Made by a program: the position numbers and the translations under genes | Shown: piece after piece, positions 47,112 to 59,948 of the stretch | Position numbering within the stretch: position 1 is the first letter of the stretch | Layout of the letters: every line of letters begins with the position of its first letter | Notes under the pieces: generated by a model | What the model saw: only the letters and a program-made list of their open reading frames with translations | Databases searched by the model: none | What the model was told of the DNA's origin: nothing | NCBI RefSeq assembly: GCF_038561935.1 | Contig: NZ_CP102770.1 | Span: 8,308,001 to 8,372,000, forward strand | Length of the DNA stretch: 64,000 nt | Origin: Myxococcus stipitatus | GTDB taxonomy: Bacteria; Myxococcota; Myxococcia; Myxococcales; Myxococcaceae | Direction: 5' to 3'

Positions 47112-47888
47112 TCACATCGCGTCGCGGGCCGACACCGCGCGCGCCGCCTGCTCGGTGCGCGAGTCCTTGAGCCGCCACAGCCGCCACCAGGGCGTGCCTG
47201 GGGACTGGTGGTGCTCCCAGTGGTAGCCGAAGAAGAAGCACGACAGCATCGCCCACAGGTGGTTGCGCGGCAGGGTGCGCGCGTGGTGGGGCGCCATGTC
47301 CGGCGTGTCCGGGCGCCGGTGCGGCAGGTACGTGCCGAAGTAGAAGAGCTGCAGCGTGCCGAGCACCGCGGGCAGCACCCAGAACAGCAGCACGCGCGGC
47401 TGGGACACGCCCAGGTAGACGAGGATGTTGAACTTGGCCGCCATCACCCCCAGCTGCGGCAGCGTGGTGTAGCGGACCATGAAGGTGCCCAGCCACGGCC
47501 AGAACGACTGGGTGCGCGAGGAGAAGTCCGGGTCCGTCTCCCCCGTGGGGTGCTCATGGTGGGCACGGTGGTTGAGCACCAGCCGGCGGTACGACAGGCC
47601 CGCGAAGAGGAAGCAGGCGATGGTGCCCACCACCTCGTTCACCCAGGCCGGGCGGGCCACCGTGCCGTGCATGGCGTCGTGGCCGGTGATGAAGAGCCCC
47701 GTGCACAGCCAGGCTTGGAAGACGACGTGCAGCCAGGTGAGCGGAGCGTCCCAGGCCCACCCGGGCGAGGTCAGCAGCCACGCCAGATGACCGCCCCACG
47801 CGCCCACGATGACGAGCGCGACGAGGACACCCCAAGGCCCCAGCGGGGCCGCGCGGTATGGCACCGGAGTCTCCATCTCTCCTGACAC
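47112..47888 (-). CDS. Fatty-acid desaturase fold, CrtW-like carotene ketolase
   Basis: 258 residues with about four to six hydrophobic segments and three His boxes: HDAMHG, HRAHHEH and HWEHH, which ligate a di-iron centre. The context GLFITGHDAMHGTV and YHWEHHQSPGTPWWRLW resembles beta-carotene ketolase CrtW more than fatty-acid desaturases, but both share this fold. It would add a keto group to a carotenoid ring, or desaturate or hydroxylate a lipid. GTG start. It may be the first gene of a unit with msrP-msrQ (32-bp gap). Confidence 0.7.
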   Translation of the reverse strand: MSGEMETPVPYRAAPLGPWGVLVALVIVGAWGGHLAWLLTSPGWAWDAPLTWLHVVFQAWLCTGLFITGHDAMHGTVARPAWVNEVVGTIACFLFAGLSYRRLVLNHRAHHEHPTGETDPDFSSRTQSFWPWLGTFMVRYTTLPQLGVMAAKFNILVYLGVSQPRVLLFWVLPAVLGTLQLFYFGTYLPHRRPDTPDMAPHHARTLPRNHLWAMLSCFFFGYHWEHHQSPGTPWWRLWRLKDSRTEQAARAVSARDAM

Positions 47889-47961
47889 ATGCTACCGCGC
47901 CGCCCGCCGCGCACGGGAAGCCTTCCCTGGCGCGGGGGCGGACTGGCGGACGTGGCGTGGG

Positions 47962-49671
47962 CTACTTGCGCGCGCCCGGGGACGCGGCGGCCTCGCGGAC
48001 CAGCGCCTCCGCGGTGACGTAGTGGGGCTCGATGTCCACCGGCACGTCCTTGAGGCGCTCGAGCACCTTGCGCACCGAGGGCCGCACCACGCCCATCTTC
48101 GCCAGCAGGGCCTCGGCGGCCTTGCGGTCACCCTTCCCCTGGATCTCCATCAGCTGCTTCGTCAGCGCGGTGACGGACTGCTGGATCTTCTCCGGCACCA
48201 CGGAGAAGGTGCCGTCCGCGTTGACCTTCACCGCGCCCGTGTCCAGGAAGTGGTTGAGCTGCAGCGCCACGCCCTTGCCGTGCGCCTCGTCGATGCCGAA
48301 GCGGATGGAGCGGAACGCGGAGGCCAGGAACGTCGTGTACATGGTGCGCGCCATCCCCTTGTCGATGACGCCCGTGTCCATCAGCCGCTGCAGCGCCCAC
48401 AGGCCGGAGATGTCCGCCTTGGCCTCCTCGAGCGCGCTGGACGCCACCTGGAGGGCCTGACGCACCGTCGTCGCCTTGCCGTCCACGGTGATGTTGTGCG
48501 GCCCCAGGCCGTGCATCAGCTCGTGCATGAGGATGTGCGTGAAGAACGCATCGAAGGCCACGTCCTGCTGGTCCTTCGCCGTCAGCGCCACCTTGGCGAT
48601 GGGCAGCAGCACGCGCTGGAACTTGGCCTCCTGCACGTTCTTCAGCATCACGCGCTTGGAGCCCATGGCCTCCGTGACGCGCTCGTCGTTGGGCAGGTTG
48701 TAGGCCGCCGTCTGCACGCCGCGGTTCGCGTCGCCCGAGGAGAACAGGCTGTTGACGACGCGGATGGGGGCCAGCGCGCCCAGCTTCGGGCTGCGCATCT
48801 TCGGGTCGATGGGGAGGTTGTTCTCCAGGTCCTGGAGGTGGTCGCTGAACTTCGCCAGCTTCGTCGTCTCCGCGTCGTCGCGCAGGCCGACGAAGGCCTC
48901 GAAGGCGGCCTTGTAGTTGAACCAGCCGTCCTCGTAGACCTCGTAGGGTCCGACGGTGGGCTCGATGCTGGCGTCCAGCTTCATCCACGCCACCTCGCTG
49001 GCGTAGTAGTCGTTGGACAGGAACGCGTCCGCGCGCGCGTTGAGGAACGCCTTGAGCGTGGGCTGCTTCGTCAGGCTCGCCGCCTCACGGAAGAGCGCGG
49101 CGGCCTGCGCCAGCTCGCCCTGGTACTCCACGCTGTACGGCACGGAGATGAACTTGCCGTCGGTGCCCCGACGGATGGTCGTGTAGAAGCCGGTGGCCTC
49201 CTTCGCCTGCGCCTCGGGCAGCGACTTCACCCACGCCTCCACCTCCGCCTTGGTGGCGCCGGCCGGGTAGAAGTTGCCGGCCTCCGGCTTCGCGGGCACG
49301 CCGGGCAGGAACGGACGCCCCTCGTCCAGGCTGTTCCACGGGCCCTTGTCCAGGACGAACGCGTGCAGCCGCGCGCGGCCCAGCGGCGTCTCGTCCCGCA
49401 CCAGCCCGAGCAGCACCGTCTCGCTCCCCGCCCAGCGCTGGCGCAGGAAGAGCGCGTCCATCAGCTGCGAGGCCTGGACGATGCGCGCCAGGGCGCGGCG
49501 CTCGTTGTCGGGAAGGGGCTTCAGGTCCACGCTCAGCTCCACCGGGGCGAAGCGCGCGGTGAGGCGCTGGAGCTCGGCGGCGTCGGGCAGCGCGGCGGGG
49601 GCTTTCTGCTCGGCCAGGGCGGGGCCGGACAGCAACATCGCCCCCAACAGGGAGAAGAGGGTTCGGTTCAT
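47962..49671 (-). CDS. Secreted M49-like (dipeptidyl-peptidase III family) zinc metallopeptidase
   Basis: 569 residues. Signal peptide (FSLLGAMLLSGPALA). The zinc motif HELMHGLG gives HExxH, with the third ligand likely in ALEEAKADISGLW, which parallels the EECRAD of DPP III. M49 enzymes remove dipeptides from short peptides; bacterial members can lack the extra residue in the classic HExxGH, as here. ATG start. It lies 73 bp from the desaturase-like gene and is divergent from the CBM21 gene. Periplasmic or secreted. Confidence 0.78.
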   Translation of the reverse strand: MNRTLFSLLGAMLLSGPALAEQKAPAALPDAAELQRLTARFAPVELSVDLKPLPDNERRALARIVQASQLMDALFLRQRWAGSETVLLGLVRDETPLGRARLHAFVLDKGPWNSLDEGRPFLPGVPAKPEAGNFYPAGATKAEVEAWVKSLPEAQAKEATGFYTTIRRGTDGKFISVPYSVEYQGELAQAAALFREAASLTKQPTLKAFLNARADAFLSNDYYASEVAWMKLDASIEPTVGPYEVYEDGWFNYKAAFEAFVGLRDDAETTKLAKFSDHLQDLENNLPIDPKMRSPKLGALAPIRVVNSLFSSGDANRGVQTAAYNLPNDERVTEAMGSKRVMLKNVQEAKFQRVLLPIAKVALTAKDQQDVAFDAFFTHILMHELMHGLGPHNITVDGKATTVRQALQVASSALEEAKADISGLWALQRLMDTGVIDKGMARTMYTTFLASAFRSIRFGIDEAHGKGVALQLNHFLDTGAVKVNADGTFSVVPEKIQQSVTALTKQLMEIQGKGDRKAAEALLAKMGVVRPSVRKVLERLKDVPVDIEPHYVTAEALVREAAASPGARK

Positions 49672-49820
49672 GCCCCTTCCCTACTCCAACCTCGCGCGTC
49701 CTCCCAGCGCCCGTGCTCGTGCGGACATCGGAACATTCCAACCGGGACGGTTTGGCGGCGCGCGGCACGGCTCGCTGACAACATGCGGCGGCCTGGATTT
49801 CCCAGGGAACGAAGGCTCAG

Positions 49821-49839
49821 GTGCCCTGTGACAGGGCAC
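49821..49839 (+). promoter_or_regulatory. Hairpin just before the CBM21 gene start
   Basis: GTGCCCTG-TGA-CAGGGCAC, 8-base perfect arms with a 3-base loop, ending 14 bases upstream of the ATG at 49854 and touching the ribosome-site region. It could be a protein-binding operator or an mRNA hairpin affecting translation. Confidence 0.4.
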
Positions 49840-49853
49840 GCGGGGGGCAACCC

Positions 49854-50642
49854 ATGACGACTCGAACCGGTACTCCAGCCCGATGGAGCGTGCTGCTGGT
49901 GGCGCTGACGGCGGTGCTCACCTCCACCTCCGCGCTCGCCGCGGACGAGGTGCGCCTGCTCAAGGCGGTGAGCACGGTGTCCAGCTACCGCGGCAACACG
50001 TGGCAGGACGTCACCTACCTGCTGGTGGTGAAGAACCTGGCCTACGAGAAGCAGGTCGTCATCCATGACAAGCAGCCGGATGGCTCATGGCTGGACTTGT
50101 CCGCCAGCTACGCGGGCGGCGCGGGCCCGGGCCAGGAGCTGTGGAAGGTGACGCGGCAGTACCAGAGCTGGGGCACGGCGCCTCAGCCGACGCGCGACCT
50201 GGAGTTCGTCGCGCGGCTCACGGTGAATGGGCAGACGTATTGGGACAACAACGCGGGCGCCAACTACCACCTGGGCCGCGCGGACGGGCCGCTCCTGCCT
50301 CGGGTGAACGTGCTGGTGGCGACCAGCGTCTGGCAGTCCAACGGCGACGTGGACATCGGTATCGACGTGAAGAACCTCGCCTATTCCAAGAGCGTCACTG
50401 TCGTCTACAGCACGGACGACTGGGCGACGTCGCACGAGGTCGCCGCCTCCTTCGTCCCGGGCTACTCCGCAGGTTATGCGTATGTCGCGAGTCCCAACGC
50501 GCAGAACGTGGAGCGGTGGCAGGCCCGCATCCCGCCCGGGTCCGGCACACCTCGCTACTACATCCGCTACCAGGTGGGCGGCCAGACGTACTGGGACAGC
50601 CACTTCGGCCAGAACTACCCACCCATCTACCCTCCCCTGTAA
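49854..50642 (+). CDS. Secreted protein with two CBM21-type carbohydrate-binding modules
   Basis: 262 residues. Signal peptide (VLLVALTAVLTSTSALAA) then two tandem modules. Module 1 (~30-145) has VVKNLAYEKQV and the terminal YWDNNAGANYHL; module 2 (~150-260) has DVKNLAYSKSV and YWDSHFGQNYPP. NLAYEK and YWDNN-x-G-x-NY are the signatures of CBM21, known from PP1 glycogen-targeting subunits and fungal glucoamylase, and binding alpha-glucans such as starch or glycogen. No catalytic domain is present. ATG at 49854 with GGGGGG upstream. Confidence 0.82.
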   Translation: MTTRTGTPARWSVLLVALTAVLTSTSALAADEVRLLKAVSTVSSYRGNTWQDVTYLLVVKNLAYEKQVVIHDKQPDGSWLDLSASYAGGAGPGQELWKVTRQYQSWGTAPQPTRDLEFVARLTVNGQTYWDNNAGANYHLGRADGPLLPRVNVLVATSVWQSNGDVDIGIDVKNLAYSKSVTVVYSTDDWATSHEVAASFVPGYSAGYAYVASPNAQNVERWQARIPPGSGTPRYYIRYQVGGQTYWDSHFGQNYPPIYPPL

Positions 50643-50734: not shown

Positions 50735-52681
50735 ATGACCGTCGAAGCCGCCCCCCAGAGGGAAACCCATGCCTTCCAGGCGGAGATCAACCAGCTCCTG
50801 AGCCTGGTCATCAACTCGCTCTACAGCCACAAGGAGATCTTCCTGAGGGAGCTGGTGTCCAACGCCTCGGACGCGTTGGACAAGCTCCGCTTCCGGGCCA
50901 TCACGGAGCCCGAGCTGCTCGCGGACGCCCCCGAGCTGGAGCTGCGCATCATCCCCGACGCCGACAAGGGCACCCTCACCATCGAGGACAGCGGCATCGG
51001 CATGTCGCACGACGAGCTGGTGAAGAACCTGGGCACCATCGCCCACTCCGGCTCGCGCGAGTTCATCCAGGCGATGACGCAGCGAGGGCAGAAGGACATG
51101 CAGCTCATCGGCCAGTTCGGCGTGGGCTTCTACAGCGCGTACCTCGTCGCGGACCGGGTGGAGGTCATCAGCCGCGCGGCGGGCAAGGACACCGCCGCGT
51201 GGAAGTGGACCTCGGAGGCCCACGGCACCTTCACCGTGGAGCCCGCCGAGCGCGCCACCCGAGGCACCTCCGTCATCCTCCACGTGAAGGAGGACCAGAA
51301 GGAGTTCCTGGACGAGTGGCGGCTGCGCTCGCTCATCACCCAGTACTCCGACTACGTCGGCCACCCCATCAAGCTCCAGGTGAAGAAGACCACCGGGACG
51401 GGCGACGACGCGAAGACGGAGACCGCGCTGGAGGTCGTGAACAAGGCCAGCGCGCTGTGGCAGCGCGCCAAGTCGGACATCACCGACGAGCAGTACCAGG
51501 AGTTCTACAAGCACCTGACGCACGACTGGGAAGCGCCGCTGGCGTGGACGCACTTCAAGGCGGACGGCCACCAGCAGTTCACCGGCCTGCTCTTCGTGCC
51601 CAAGCACCCGCCGTTCGACTTGAACGCGCAGCAGCAGCGCGGGGTGCGCCTGTTCGTCAAGCGCGTGTTCATCATGGACCGCTGCGAGGAGCTGGTGCCG
51701 CAGTGGCTGCGCTTCGTGCGCGGCGTCATCGACTCGGATGACCTGCCGCTCAACGTCTCGCGCGAGCTGCTCCAGGACTCGCAGGTGGTGCGCGCCATCC
51801 GCAAGCACGTGGTGAAGAAGTCCCTGGACCTCCTGGAGAAGATGTCCAAGGACAAGCCGGAGGACTACAAGGAGTTCTGGAAGTCTTTCGGCACGGTGCT
51901 CAAGGAAGGTCTCGCCACGGAGGCCGAGCACAAGGACAAGCTGGGCGGCCTCTTGCGCTACGAGAGCTCTCGCGAAGAGGGCCTCACCTCGCTCGCCGAC
52001 TACGTGTCGCGCATGAAGGAGGGCCAGGAGGCGCTCTATTACATGTACGGCGAGTCCCGGAAGGCGGTGGAGGACAGCCCGCACCTGGAGGCGCTGAAGC
52101 AGCGCGGCTACGAGGTCCTCTTCATGACGGACCCGGTGGACGAGTGGGCCGCGCAGGGCCTGCGTGAGTTCCAGGGCAAGCCCCTGGTGTCCGCGCTCCA
52201 GGCGGACCTGAAGCTCCAGGCCACCGACGAGCAGAAGAAGGAGCAGGAGCAGAGCGCGGAGGGACTCAAGGGCCTCACGTCGAGGATGAAGGACGTGCTC
52301 CAGGACTCCGTGCGCGAGGTGCGCGTGACGGACCGGCTCACGGACTCGCCGGTGTGCCTCGTCGTCCCGGAGGGCGGCTCTCCCGCGTACCTGGAGCGGC
52401 TGCTCCAGCAGCGCGGCAAGGGCATGCCGCGCGTCAAGCGCATCCTGGAGGTCAATCCCAAGCACCCGGTCATCGAGCACCTCAAGGCGCTCCACGAGAA
52501 GGACCCGGCCCAGGCGCAGGTGGCCGAGTGGATTGAGCTCCTCCACGACCAGGCGCTGCTCACCGAGGGCAGCACCATCTCCGACCCGAACCGCTTCGCG
52601 CGCCGGCTGACGACGCTGCTGACGCAGGTGGCGGGCATGGCGGCGAGCGCGCCGGGGGCCTCCGCGCGGCCCACGAGCTGA
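50735..52681 (+). CDS. htpG: HtpG, Hsp90-family chaperone
   Basis: 648 residues, full length. N-terminal ATPase with [21 protein letters not shown] and [14 protein letters not shown], then the middle domain with the ATP-contacting Arg region ([12 protein letters not shown]), and the C-terminal dimerisation domain. It lacks the eukaryotic charged linker and MEEVD tail. A cytosolic ATP-dependent folding factor. The ATG at 50735 is its start. No CIRCE element is seen. A strong terminator follows at 52701. Confidence 0.96.
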
Positions 52682-52700
52682 GCGGCACCGCGCGCCTCAC

Positions 52701-52732
52701 GGCCTCCACCCCACCGGTTCGGGGTGGAGGCC
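52701..52732 (+). terminator. Strong hairpin after htpG
   Basis: Twelve-base perfect stem GGCCTCCACCCC / GGGGTGGAGGCC with an 8-base loop, 20 bases after the stop, followed by TCAGTGACCTTTCTC. Confidence 0.7.
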
Positions 52733-52803
52733 TCAGTGACCTTTCTCGCAAATCCTCGGTCCGCGATTAGACAGCCTTGTGAGTGATAGGGAATGATGGC
52801 CGG

Positions 52804-53748
52804 ATGCCCCAGACCTCCTTCGCGGTCTTCACTTGCGACATCCTTCCGGCGGCGGCCCCCTTGGTGCGAGCAGCCATCCAGGGAGTGGTCCGAGCCGAGC
52901 TCAGCAAGCCCCACCGGCGAGTCCGACAGCCCCTCGGCAACCAATGGTTGGTGCGCTTCGATGATGGGGGCTTCAATTCCTTCGTCCTGGTGATGAGCAC
53001 GCTGCGCGCGCGCCATCCCGATGCGTTCCGCTATCTCGTCGTCGGCTGGAACGACATGGGCTCGGTGGCGCTGTATCCGCTGGGTGGCGCGGCCCCCAAC
53101 ACGCTCAGCCTGGTCACCGCGATGGCCGCCGTCGCGTCCGGCGCGGATGCGCTCGCCGCGCCGCTGCTGCTGGGCTCGGGACCTCGGACGGGCACGGACT
53201 TCCCCTTCCAGTGGGCGGAGGAGGCGGGCGCGGACGAGGACATCCTCGGGGCTCCCGCCGCGAAGGCCCGGCGCGCGGGCCCCAGGAAGACGGTGACGCG
53301 TGCCCGCGCGGTGGCCGTCGTCGCCGCGCCGAAAGAGACGCCGCCGGCCCCCCTCGTCGAGGCCCCCGTGGCCCCGCCTCCGGTGGAAGCGGTGAGCCCG
53401 GCCCCCGCGAGTGAGGACGCGCAGCCGGAAGCCGCGGAGCCGCGCGCGCGCAAGACGGCGCGTCGCAAGCAGGCGCGCGGCAAGCGGGCCGCGGGGAGCG
53501 GTGCGGCCAAGGCGAAGAACAAGCGGGGGGCACGGAAGCCTCGCGCGAAGCTGGAGGCCGAGGCCACCCAGCGCCGCAGCCCCAAGGCGAAGAGCAAGCG
53601 CGCCGGTGGCGCCATCAGCCGCAAGCGCACCCGCGCGACGGTCAGCGCCAAGCGCTCCACGTCGAGCAAGGGCGCGCGAGGCTCCGCCGCCAAGGCGAAG
53701 TCGACGAAGGGCGCCACCAAGCGCAAGGGCAAGGGCCGCGCTCGCTGA
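52804..53748 (+). CDS. Unknown N-terminal domain fused to a histone-H1-like basic tail
   Basis: 314 residues. Residues ~1-145 form a compact-looking domain I do not recognise (start MPQTSFAVFTCDIL; later YLVVGWNDMGSVALYPLGG). A Pro/Ala/Glu-rich linker (~165-220) follows, then ~95 residues made mainly of Lys, Arg and Ala with KAK, RKR and SKR repeats, resembling bacterial histone H1-like or AlgP-type tails that bind DNA. It may be a nucleoid- or RNA-binding protein; the front domain's job is unknown. The ATG at 52804 is preferred; a GTG at 52783 would add seven residues. Confidence 0.7.
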   Translation: MPQTSFAVFTCDILPAAAPLVRAAIQGVVRAELSKPHRRVRQPLGNQWLVRFDDGGFNSFVLVMSTLRARHPDAFRYLVVGWNDMGSVALYPLGGAAPNTLSLVTAMAAVASGADALAAPLLLGSGPRTGTDFPFQWAEEAGADEDILGAPAAKARRAGPRKTVTRARAVAVVAAPKETPPAPLVEAPVAPPPVEAVSPAPASEDAQPEAAEPRARKTARRKQARGKRAAGSGAAKAKNKRGARKPRAKLEAEATQRRSPKAKSKRAGGAISRKRTRATVSAKRSTSSKGARGSAAKAKSTKGATKRKGKGRAR

Positions 53749-53796
53749 GGGCCTTCCCGGCGCACCGCGCGGACTCCCCCGCGCGGTGCCTCGCCG

Positions 53797-55047
53797 TCAC
53801 AGCCCCAGGTCGAGGAGCACGGCCTCGGCCGCGCGCCTCCCGGAGACGAGCGCACCGTGAATGGAGGCGCTGTCGCGGTGGTCACCACAGACATACAGCC
53901 CGGGAGACAGGCGCACCGGACGATGTGGCGACTCGAGCGCCTCCAGCGTCTGTGAGGGCAGCGCGAAGGGCAGCGAATACGTGCGCAGGTGCCGCCACGC
54001 ACTCACGCCCTTGCCGAACCATCCCGTCAGCTCGTCGAGGACCCGCGCTCGCAGCGCCGCCTCATCCGTGGACACGCCCGGCACGGACACGGAGATGAGG
54101 GACTGGCCCGAGGGCGCATACCCGGCGGACACCTCGCTCATCACCGCCACGGTGTTCACCACGCCGCGCCCCTCGCCATTGAGCAGCAACCACGGCCCTT
54201 CCGCGGGCGGCTCGGGCGCGGCGAAATACAGACACGTCACCGCGTTCATCCGCGGCGCCGGCAGTCCAGGCAACAACCTCGCCGCCGCCAGCGGGTCGGT
54301 GGCCACCACCACCGCCTTCGCCTGCAGCTGCTCTCCGCCCTCCAGTCGCACGCGATGTCCCCACACCTCGAGCACGGGGACCCTGCGGCGCAAGACGCCA
54401 GTGGGGAGCTTCGCCGCGAGCTGCTCGGCAATGGCGCCCATGCCCTGCTCCGGCACCGCCGCGTCCCCCGAGGAGAACATGCGAATGACAAACTCGAGGA
54501 GCCGGCTGGACGTCGTCAGCGAAGGGTCCAGGAACACGCCGGACAGGAAGGGCCGCAGGAACCCTTCCACCATCTCCTCCGTGAAGCCCAGCTCATCCAG
54601 GTAGCGCCGCGTGGTGCGCTGGGGACGGAGCCAGACGTCCTCGTCCTCGCCGGAGCGCGCGAGCTGCCGCAGCTCGAGCACCCGGAGTTTGTCCCCAAAC
54701 GTTCCCACCGAGCCCAACAAATGTGACAGCGCCGTCACCGGCTGACGAAACGGGTCCACCACCGTCCGCAGCCGCCCGCCCCTCCACACCTTCGCGCCTG
54801 GAAGAAAGCGATGCAGCTTCAAGGACTCCAGGTCCAGCACCTGCCGGCCCTCGGGATATGCCGTGAGGTACACCTGGAAGCCTCGGTCCAGGCGGAAGCC
54901 CTCTTCATGCACATCCGTGCGGACGCGACCTCCTGGCGCATCCCCGGCTTCCAGGAGCATTACTTTCAAGCGGGATTGCACGAGCGCTCTCGCGCACGCC
55001 AGTCCCGAGAGTCCCGCGCCCACGACGATGACGTCCGGGTTCGACAC
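53797..55047 (-). CDS. FAD-dependent amine-oxidase/phytoene-desaturase-like oxidoreductase
   Basis: 416 residues. N-terminal Rossmann FAD site [17 protein letters not shown], then [13 protein letters not shown] (the second flavin motif of the amine-oxidase/CrtI family), and the C-terminal [26 protein letters not shown] flavin block. The closest pattern is the NAD(P)-binding FAD protein group related to phytoene desaturase and protoporphyrinogen oxidase. The substrate is unknown. The GTG at 55047 has GGGAG upstream; the frame continues to 55176. It is divergent from aroF, 191 bp apart. Confidence 0.83.
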
Positions 55048-57284: not shown

Positions 57285-58102
57285 GCGGGGCACAGCGTGG
57301 AGGCCCCCCGTCTCCGGCCGCGCCGGGGACGCTGGACATCATCATGGCGCGCAAGCGTCGGGAGCTGGCCGAGCGGCCTGTCATGGCGCCGCGTCCTCGT
57401 CCCGAGCCGCGTGACTTCGCGGGGGCCCTGCTGCGTCGACCAGCGGTCCGTCCCGTGACGGTCATCGCGGAGGTGAAGCGCAAGAGTCCGTCGGGAGGAG
57501 CGTTTCCACATGCGGACGTGGTGGCGGTGGCTCGGGCCTATGAGGCCGCGGGGGCCAGCGCCATCAGTGTGCTCACGGATGGGCCGGACTTCGGCGGGGC
57601 GCTGGAGGACCTGGTCGCGGTGCGTGCGGCGGTGTCGATTCCGGTGTTGCGCAAGGACTTCCTGGTCGCGGCGCGCGAGGTGGAGGAGAGCGCGCTGTGG
57701 GGCGCGGACGCGATTTTGCTCATCGCGGATGCGCTGGAGGATGGCGAGCTGAGGGAGATGCTGGCCACGGCGCAGCAGGTGAAGGTGGCCGCGTTGGTGG
57801 AGGCGCACACGGAGGCGCACGCCGAGCGGGCGCTGGCGGCGGGGGCCCGACTGGTGGGCATCAACAACCGCGACCTGGCCACGTTGAAGACAGACGTGGG
57901 CACGGCGTTGCGGGTGATGCCGAAGCTGCGCTCCCGCGCGCACGTGCTGGTGGCCGAGAGCGGGCTCAAGTCGGTGACGGAGCTGCGTGCCGCGAGGGAT
58001 GCGGGCGCCGACGCGGTGCTGGTGGGCGAGTCGCTCCTGCGAGACGCGGAGCCCGGCCGAGCACTGCGGCGACTCCTGAGCGAGGAAGGTGGCTCGCCAT
58101 GA
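57281..58102 (+). CDS. trpC: Indole-3-glycerol-phosphate synthase
   Basis: 273 residues, TIM barrel. [13 protein letters not shown] holds the catalytic Lys, VPVLRKDF-like [10 protein letters not shown] and [13 protein letters not shown] follow, and the last strands show [12 protein letters not shown] and VGESLL. It closes the pyrrole ring from CdRP to indole-glycerol phosphate. The N-terminus has ~18 extra residues. GTG start overlapping trpD by 4 bp; the stop overlaps the trpF ATG by 4 bp. Confidence 0.95.
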
Positions 58103-58737
58103 GCGTCCGCGTGAAGGTGTGTGGCGTCACTCGACTGGAGGATGCACGGGCCGCGTGGGAGGCGGGCGCGGATGCGCTCGGCCTCAACTTCTACCCGCGC
58201 TCTCCTCGATACGTGACGCTGGAGACGGCCCGGGCGCTCGCGCGCACGCGGCCACCGCTGGGCGCGGTGATTGGCGTGTTCGTCAACGCCTCGCCGGACG
58301 ACATCCGCGCGGCCGTGAAGGAGTGTGGTCTCACGGCCGTGCAGCTCCACGGAGACGAGCCACCCGAAGCCTGCTCCGGCTACGGCGTGCCCGTCATCAA
58401 GGCGCTGCGGGTGCAGGGTGCGGAGGACGTGACTCGCGCACGGGCCTACCTGGGAGTCGGCGACGTGGCGGGGCTGCTGCTCGATGGGGCCGCCCCCGGC
58501 TACGGCGGCGGCGGCGTGGGCTTCGACTGGTCGCTGGTCGCGGGACTGTCGGGCAGCGGGGTGCCGGTGTTGGTGGCCGGAGGGCTCAAGCCCTCGAACG
58601 TGGCGGAAGCAGTGCGCGCGACGCGGCCGTATGGAGTGGACGTGGCCAGCGGGGTGGAGTCGGCCCCCGGCATCAAAGACATGGATGCGGTGCGCGCCTT
58701 CGTGCGAGCCGCGAAGTCCATCAACCTCTGGGAGTGA
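58099..58737 (+). CDS. trpF: Phosphoribosylanthranilate isomerase
   Basis: 212 residues. The start [14 protein letters not shown] carries the catalytic Cys, and [19 protein letters not shown] the catalytic Asp and phosphate loop, ending with [12 protein letters not shown]. It converts PRA to CdRP, the step before TrpC. It is a separate gene here, not fused to trpC as in E. coli. ATG overlaps the trpC stop as ATGA. Confidence 0.95.
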
Positions 58738-58742
58738 CAGGG

Positions 58743-59948
58743 ATGAACACGCAGACCGCCGTCGGACGCTTCGGGCGTTTCGGCGGACGCTACGTGCCGG
58801 AGACGCTCGTCCCGGCACTGATGGAACTGGAAGAAGCCTACGCGGCTGCCCGCGCGGACCCGACGTTCGACGCGGAAGTGGCCCAGGTGCTCCGCGAGTT
58901 CGTGGGGCGCCCCACCACGCTGACCCCCGCCCGTCGTCTCACCGAGGCGTGGGGCGGCGCACACGTCTGGCTCAAGCGCGAGGACCTCGCGCACACGGGC
59001 GCGCACAAAATCAACAACACCGTGGGCCAGGTGCTGCTCGCGCGGCGCATGGGAAAGAAGCGCATCATCGCGGAGACGGGCGCGGGCCAGCACGGCGTCG
59101 CCACGGCGACCGCGTGCGCGCTCTTCGGCCTGCCCTGTGAAGTCTTCATGGGCGCGCTGGACGTCGAGCGGCAGGCCCTCAACGTCTTCCGCATGCGAGC
59201 CCTCGGCGCCGTCGTGCGGCCGGTGGAGTCCGGCTCGAGGACGCTGAAGGACGCGATGAACGAGGCCATGCGGACCTGGGTCTCGCAGGTCTCCGACACG
59301 CACTACGTCATCGGCAGCGCGGCGGGTCCGCATCCGTACCCGACGGTGGTGCGCGACTTCCAGGCCATCATCGGCCGCGAGCTGCGCACGCAAGCCCAGG
59401 CCGCGTTCGGCAAGCTGCCGGATGCGATTGTCGCGTGTGTCGGTGGCGGCTCCAACGCCATCGGTGTCCTGCACCCCTTCATCGGAGACCCGAGCGTGCG
59501 GCTCATCGGTGTCGAAGCCGGTGGGCACGGCCTGGACTCGGGCCAGCATGGCGCGTCACTGACGCTGGGCACCGAGGGCGTGCTGCACGGCTCTCGTTCA
59601 CTCGTGCTCCAGGATGCGGATGGCCAGATTCAGGAGGCGCACAGCATCTCGGCCGGCCTGGACTACCCGGGTGTCGGCCCCGAGCTGGCGCACCTGGCGA
59701 AGACGGGACGCATGGAGGTCCGCACCGCCACGGACGACGAGGCGTTGGCCTCGTTCTACGAGGTGGCGCGACTGGAAGGCATCCTCCCCGCGCTCGAGAC
59801 GTCACATGCCTTCGCGCGTGGACGGGAGCTGGCGCGAGAGCTGGGCGCGGGCAAGTACCTGGTCATCAACTGCTCGGGCCGGGGCGACAAGGACGTCGCG
59901 ACGATTTCCGCGCGAGGCGTCCCTCCCGCGGTGGGGGTGAAGCCATGA
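58743..59948 (+). CDS. trpB: Tryptophan synthase beta chain
   Basis: 401 residues. [16 protein letters not shown] opens the standard TrpB1 form. The PLP Lys lies in [13 protein letters not shown] (about residue 88), the cofactor phosphate loop is GGGSNAIG, and the active-site Glu is in ETGAGQHG. It joins indole with serine to make Trp in a complex with TrpA. ATG at 58743, 5 bp after trpF; its stop overlaps the trpA ATG. Confidence 0.97.

Follow-up and report, generated by a model that had tools for sequence, protein, structure and literature searches.

Among the described bacterial proteins that join a folded domain to a basic tail, CarD of Myxococcus xanthus is also myxobacterial. CarD has been described as a folded CarD_CdnL_TRCF N-terminal domain followed by an acidic segment and an intrinsically unfolded, DNA-binding HMGA-like tail, and four RGRP AT-hook repeats are reported in it. 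In Pseudomonas, AlgP and PhaF are reported to consist of an N-terminal domain and a long Lys/Ala-rich, histone H1-like tail implicated in DNA binding. The C-terminal fragment of AlgP is reported to bind DNA, 25 perfect KPAA repeats are described for this protein, and its N-terminal domain is predicted to be alpha-helical. CarD is thus far one well-studied myxobacterial protein of mixed, eukaryote-like layout. The HupS-type HU proteins of Streptomyces likewise combine a folded domain with a Lys-rich tail, and Hc1 has a Lys-rich, histone H1-like composition. A composition of this kind is also reported for chlamydial Hc2.

We analyzed a 64,000-nucleotide stretch of the Myxococcus stipitatus genome (10.17 Mb), referred to here as the window, which encodes a 314-aa protein from an ATG to a TGA codon (Table 1). 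GC contents by codon position were 0.71/0.53/0.86 for residues 1–143 and 0.71/0.71/0.92 from residue 151. These values match the expectation for coding sequence at 70% GC, and the gene is therefore real in both halves. The 314-aa protein is a real, conserved protein, so far found in one Myxococcus branch only. Its two-part layout is of a known kind, and its N-terminal domain is new to the libraries searched.

Table 1. Positions, within the window, of the gene, its parts and the flanking signals.
Feature	Position	Strand	Observation
Whole gene, 314 aa and stop	52804..53748	+	Present in 11 of 27 Myxococcus genomes
N-terminal domain, residues 1–137	52804..53214	+	Invariant columns, dN/dS, AlphaFold model
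Linker, residues 138–217, Pro/Ala-rich	53215..53454	+	Length, sequence and charge vary among homologues
Lys/Arg/Ala-rich tail, residues 218–314	53455..53745	+	Composition
Conserved tail segment, residues 257–285	53572..53658	+	14 invariant residues in 11 homologues
Strong hairpin between htpG stop and gene, without T run	52701..52732	+	-29.4 kcal/mol, z -5.34
Strong hairpin just past stop codon, between convergent genes	53758..53796	+	-31.3 kcal/mol, z -5.84
Promoter-like pair TAGACA-18-AATGAT, ending 6 nt before ATG	52768..52797	+	Conserved in homologues

The earlier note on this DNA had described a compact domain of about 145 residues, an acidic and Pro-containing linker, and a basic tail. 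The layout of a compact domain with a basic tail was borne out: 79 of the last 95 residues are Lys, Arg, Ala, Ser or Gly, including 37 Lys or Arg, and 2 are Asp or Glu. The domain itself stood, but its proposed size did not, with strong conservation stopping near residue 137. The linker was acidic and proline-containing in the 314-aa protein, where residues 144–214 include 14 Pro and 10 acidic residues and have a pI of 5.3. Across the 11 homologues, however, the same stretch had a pI below 7 in five and between 8.8 and 11.6 in the other six. Because the linker is basic in six of the 11, acidity is not a feature of the family.

The 314-aa protein was compared to each of the described systems. 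It resembles CarD in its myxobacterial origin and in the order of a folded N-terminal domain and a basic tail. However, searches of Pfam and NCBIfam found no CarD_CdnL_TRCF domain, and the RGRP motif does not occur in the 314-aa protein; it appears once in each of two of the 11 homologues, without a repeat series. Looser GRPR or GKPK cores are present in four more homologues, again with no repeat series. The acidic segment reported before the basic region of CarD also differs from the linker here, which is acidic in a minority of the homologues only. With AlgP and PhaF, the 314-aa protein shares an N-terminal domain and a long Lys/Ala-rich, histone H1-like tail. In contrast to the repeat series of AlgP, KPAA is absent from all 11 homologues, and the N-terminal domain is modeled as alpha/beta instead of alpha-helical. 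The 314-aa protein thus has neither of the repeats known to bind DNA in CarD (RGRP) and AlgP (KPAA). As it also lacks the CarD domain, it belongs to neither the CarD nor the AlgP/PhaF family. Unlike HupS, it matched no HU or other family domain in Pfam or NCBIfam at E up to 1. The lack of any family match in these searches also sets it apart from Hc1 and Hc2, and the basic part here is a tail on an unrelated compact domain.

The net charge over the last 164 residues of the 314-aa protein is +39. In all 11 homologues, the last 95 residues contain 34–39 Lys plus Arg and 1–4 Asp plus Glu, and Phe, Trp, Tyr and His are absent from the last 100 residues. This is the composition of a histone H1-like tail, a long C-terminal region dominated by Lys, Ala, Ser, Gly and Arg without aromatic residues. 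The tail was compared to a sample of 284 genes, which were called by a crude GC-based predictor in the window and in 20 evenly spaced 20-kb stretches (400 kb) of the same genome. Its Lys plus Arg fraction of 0.39 was the highest of the sample (mean 0.12, sd 0.04), and the runner-up, at 0.28, was offset by 0.24 acidic residues. Its Lys fraction of 0.20 was also the highest, followed by 0.16. A search for related tails elsewhere in the same genome returned three weak matches (E 0.1–0.7), none of which was upheld: one lay opposite a 611-aa frame with a normal coding pattern, and the other two each contained a stop codon.

In the best reading, which is drawn by analogy, the 314-aa protein would be specific to its lineage and bind the nucleoid or a polyanion, with the architecture of CarD, AlgP or PhaF but an unrelated N-terminal domain; we infer DNA binding from this likeness. 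In its full form, which we regard as evenly poised between right and wrong, the reading describes a clade-specific Myxococcus protein with a ferredoxin-like N-terminal domain, a flexible linker and a cationic, polyanion-binding tail. The gene carries its own promoter-like signal. The N-terminal domain would recognize a partner or ligand, would possibly dimerize, and by analogy would give the protein its specificity. A flexible Pro/Ala-rich linker would tether this domain to a strongly cationic, probably disordered tail, which would bind a polyanion, most likely chromosomal DNA, with little sequence specificity. The sequences establish the underlying elements, namely the gene, its parts, the selection regimes, the clade restriction among the genomes searched and the conserved upstream block.

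This reading is favored by the retention of charge in all 11 homologues despite tail identity that is low in four of seven pairs, by the roughly balanced turnover of Lys and Arg, by the absence of aromatic residues and His from the last 100 residues, by the documented layout of CarD and AlgP, and by an N-terminal domain that is far more constrained. Several observations weigh against it. The N-terminal domain is not basic (pI 4.9–8.0 in the 11 homologues) and offers no clue to function, the DNA-binding repeats of CarD and AlgP are absent, the neighboring htpG, amine-oxidase-family, DAHP synthase and trp genes do not point to the nucleoid, and the sequence constraint on the tail is weak. The proposal of the earlier note, a tail that binds and condenses nucleic acid under the guidance of the N-terminal domain, fits the retained tail charge and the CarD and AlgP precedents. 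A polyphosphate- or RNA-directed tail fits too. In the titles and opening parts of abstracts covered by the literature searches, nothing on the 314-aa protein, including binding data, was recognized among the matches listed.

Among the alternatives, the tail could, though this is unlikely, bind polyphosphate or tether a storage granule to the nucleoid, in line with proposals for AlgP and PhaF, and the N-terminal domain would then mark the granule. AlgP is reported on polyphosphate granules, with a histone H1-like tail and closely spaced lysines, and the quoted net charges are +55 for AlgP and +35 for PhaF, against +39 for the last 164 residues here. However, no polyphosphate or PHA gene was present among the eight neighboring frames tested, the 314-aa protein has no KPAA repeat, and its alpha/beta N-terminal model does not match the alpha-helical prediction reported for AlgP.

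Returning to the preferred reading, its N-terminal domain could not be placed by sequence, as the earlier note had also found. That note had proposed a profile search of the domain alone. When this was performed with HMMER filters on, none of the 11 N-terminal domains had any Pfam family at E up to 10, SatD (PF16264) included. A genome search for SatD gave no matches, in its controls either. Neither Pfam nor NCBIfam had a family for the whole 314-aa protein at E up to 1; the sole NCBIfam match among the 11 members, at E 0.13 in one of them, was at chance level. The N-terminal domain matched no family in PHROGs or PADLOC, and a profile search of PDB sequences at E up to 10 returned none.

AlphaFold models, based on 11 close sequences, had mean pLDDT values of 56 (141-residue model) and 68 (126-residue model). 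In the second model, residues 11–80 reached block means of 72–89, with the order strand, helix, strand, strand, helix, strand. The predicted core is a ferredoxin-like beta-alpha-beta-beta-alpha-beta arrangement of residues 5–83; past residue 107, structural matches were few and pLDDT was low. A ferredoxin-like core is thus a plausible fold class for the N-terminal domain, held with moderate confidence on the basis of the model. With a structural aligner, a designed ferredoxin fold gave Z 8.3 (rmsd 3.0, 87 residues) and Cas2 gave Z 7.5, values at the level that the tool calls common. No family stood clearly apart in its list, from which a missing family is not thereby excluded. In a viral structure library, the top matches were phage proteins of unknown function. 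With no sequence family and a very common predicted fold, the N-terminal domain offers no clue to function.

Ribosomal and RNA-binding proteins often combine a ferredoxin-like fold with a basic tail. The 314-aa protein might accordingly be RNA- or ribosome-associated, with a ferredoxin-like domain and a basic tail that binds rRNA or mRNA, which we consider possible though unlikely. Ribosomal protein S6 and aIF2/eIF2 alpha were among the structural matches, at Z of about 6–7.5, and eIF2-containing entries headed the Foldseek list of the first, poorer model, in which nothing fell below E 0.027. However, these Z values belong to the common arrangement just mentioned, and the Pfam and NCBIfam searches showed no sequence relation to an RNA-binding family.

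More doubtfully, the N-terminal domain could be a degenerate cyclase domain of class III, or a palm of GGDEF type, whose sensing or binding of a nucleotide would control where the tail binds. A resemblance to class III cyclases, or to SatD, was seen from topology and motif before the structural results. The three best PDB matches of the better model in Foldseek were then class III nucleotidyl cyclases (E 1.0e-3, 2.5e-3 and 6.7e-3), with one protein accounting for two of the three. Visual comparison puts D12 and G45-N46 at what we take to be the sites of the cyclase metal-binding Asp and the GD turn. However, the query TM of these matches was just 0.39–0.40 with an rmsd near 11, the first model had a cyclase at rank 7 only, and the second catalytic Asp would be Asn. 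In the aligner, designed ferredoxin folds and Cas2 outranked the top-scoring cyclase (Z 6.5, rmsd 5.0, 99 residues). Profile scores were also no better than shuffles against 18 cyclase and 11 GGDEF domains, taken from 30 and 16 loci, respectively, with the rest missed by the motif pattern. Local values were reached by 50 and 56 of 100 shuffles and global values by 95 and 82 for cyclase and GGDEF, although these tests were low-powered (query Neff 1.2; the cyclase-versus-GGDEF positive control gave 11% probability and E 0.0027). A relationship of the N-terminal domain to cyclase, GGDEF or SatD proteins thus finds no support in the sequence. An extended version, to which we give hardly any weight, would make the domain an unrecognized, catalytically dead cyclase or palm member that senses a nucleotide signal and links it, by way of the histone H1-like tail, to compaction of the nucleoid or silencing of genes within a single Myxococcus clade.

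The nucleoid- or polyanion-binding reading was further compared to the selection acting on each part of the protein. In the N-terminal domain, 101 of 138 alignment columns were invariant among the 11 homologues. Against seven homologues, dN/dS was 0.09–0.21 for this domain and 0.30–0.81 for the tail. In four of the seven pairs, tail dN/dS was 0.64–0.81, which indicates weak sequence constraint on the tail; tail identity to the 314-aa protein was 49–55% in four of the seven pairs. Lys and Arg residues were exchanged in both comparisons made, with 12 lost and 12 gained against L006 and 10 lost and 13 gained against L011, counts that are approximate in a gappy alignment. Losses about equal to gains are expected if selection sees the total charge. 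The conserved segment of the tail has the pattern RRxPxAxxKRxGGxxxxKRxxxxxSxKRS in the 314-aa protein, and two homologues are without the four residues after its GG. Its 14 invariant residues argue against selection on tail composition alone. The alignments therefore describe a precise N-terminal domain under strong purifying selection and a drifting, charge-selected tail with one conserved segment. A functionless tail, left behind as a low-complexity by-product of GC-rich drift while the N-terminal domain alone matters, is very improbable: the high dN/dS and gappy alignment would suit this view, but the charge is kept in every homologue, the invariant segment persists, and Lys makes up 20% of the last 95 residues, a residue that exceeds 11% in just two of the other 283 sampled genes.

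Distribution was analyzed in 100 genomes with the N-terminal domain. Matches were found in 11 of 27 Myxococcus genomes, host included, and in none of 73 genomes from other genera. A profile search of the 27 genus genomes recovered the same 11 carriers at E below 1e-86, and the remaining matches had E 0.01–3.3. Carriers named by a peptide pattern were M. llanfairpwllgwyngyllgogerychwyrndrobwllllantysiliogogogochensis, M. qinghaiensis, M. eversor and M. dinghuensis. Among 195 genomes of the phylum, with at most 20 candidates scored per genome, no convincing further match appeared. The weak matches below the 11 carriers, at E 0.005–0.1 in the phylum and at the genus values above, were taken as chance; G148, the best non-carrier match (E 0.005) and the one inspected, was antisense to a 451-aa frame with a normal coding pattern. 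The peptide pattern, whose reach is close relatives, gave no convincing relative outside carrier genomes in a collection of 84,980 species, and the N-terminal domain had no match in phages, plasmids or viral contigs.

Hidden orthologues were sought at the corresponding loci of non-carriers. In 15 non-carriers, no related gene was seen among the longest frames of the roughly 1.5 kb that follow htpG, and 1.5 kb beyond the amine-oxidase gene at 16 non-carrier loci gave one 13-residue chance match and nothing else. The whole-genome profile search of the 27 genus genomes was a wider test than these flanks. A tree of htpG took in 26 of the 27 Myxococcus genomes; the non-carrier G015 yielded no htpG match at the cut-off. 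Rooted at the midpoint, this tree separated the 11 carriers from the 15 non-carriers with support 1.0. Given the lack of matches in other genera, the simplest history would be one gain at the base of the carrier clade, and a single loss is possible.

The main interest of the 314-aa protein is a second, independent myxobacterial basic tail of DNA-binding-like character on an unrelated domain. A second unrelated, clade-confined case would suggest that a histone H1-like tail and a new domain were joined more than once in myxobacteria. Furthermore, the clade restriction offers a clean presence/absence comparison between close species. If nucleoid binding is true, the 314-aa protein would be a lineage-specific chromosome organizer.

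Judged by position and strand, all 11 carriers have the gene flanked by htpG and by a convergent gene of the flavin amine-oxidase family. DAHP synthase follows in the longer carrier loci, and then trpD and trpC where the locus extends that far. The gene is close to htpG in ten carriers; in G005, about 2.5 kb with a long minus-strand frame separates the two (L083:2461-4935), so that co-transcription with htpG is not required. In the non-carriers G006, G020, G011 and G002, the distance from htpG to the amine-oxidase gene was about 11, 12, 17 and 25 kb, respectively, and a related gene was not seen next to either of the two.

The promoter-like pair was the sole one found in 1.3 kb, against a mean of 0.0 in 50 shuffles. 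Its second hexamer and spacing were kept in all 11 homologues, and its first hexamer was TAGACA in nine and TCGACA in two. The pair lies in a 37-nt block (52767-52803) directly before the ATG, which had four variable positions among nine homologues; its last 26 nt had three variable positions among all eleven. This block was far better conserved than the sequence 5' of it. The 21-nt core of the leader occurred once in the genome, allowing up to 3 mismatches. Because the pair ends so close before the ATG, transcription would be expected to begin at the start codon or right beside it, and the conserved block may serve as promoter for an mRNA that is leaderless or almost so. No leader RNA was matched in Rfam across 52600-53900 at E up to 1, and the predicted folding of 52763-52830 did not exceed that of shuffled sequences (z 0.37). 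An upstream frame of five codons (GTG AGT GAT AGG GAA TGA) was set aside because its start codon was not kept in one of the 11 sequences.

Other frames were observed in the window. A candidate plus-strand frame of 682 aa at 47809-49857 has counterparts with 76–79% identity in three further Myxococcus species and matched no family in Pfam at E 0.001; the crude predictor had chosen an overlapping minus-strand frame, 47962-49680. Just before htpG, a 273-aa frame (49821-50642, plus strand) carries a C-terminal starch-binding CBM21 domain. Downstream of trpC, a 619-aa frame (58089-59948, plus strand) contains a PLP-dependent PALP domain at residues 273–595, and with trpD and trpC upstream, it is possibly a fused tryptophan-synthesis protein.
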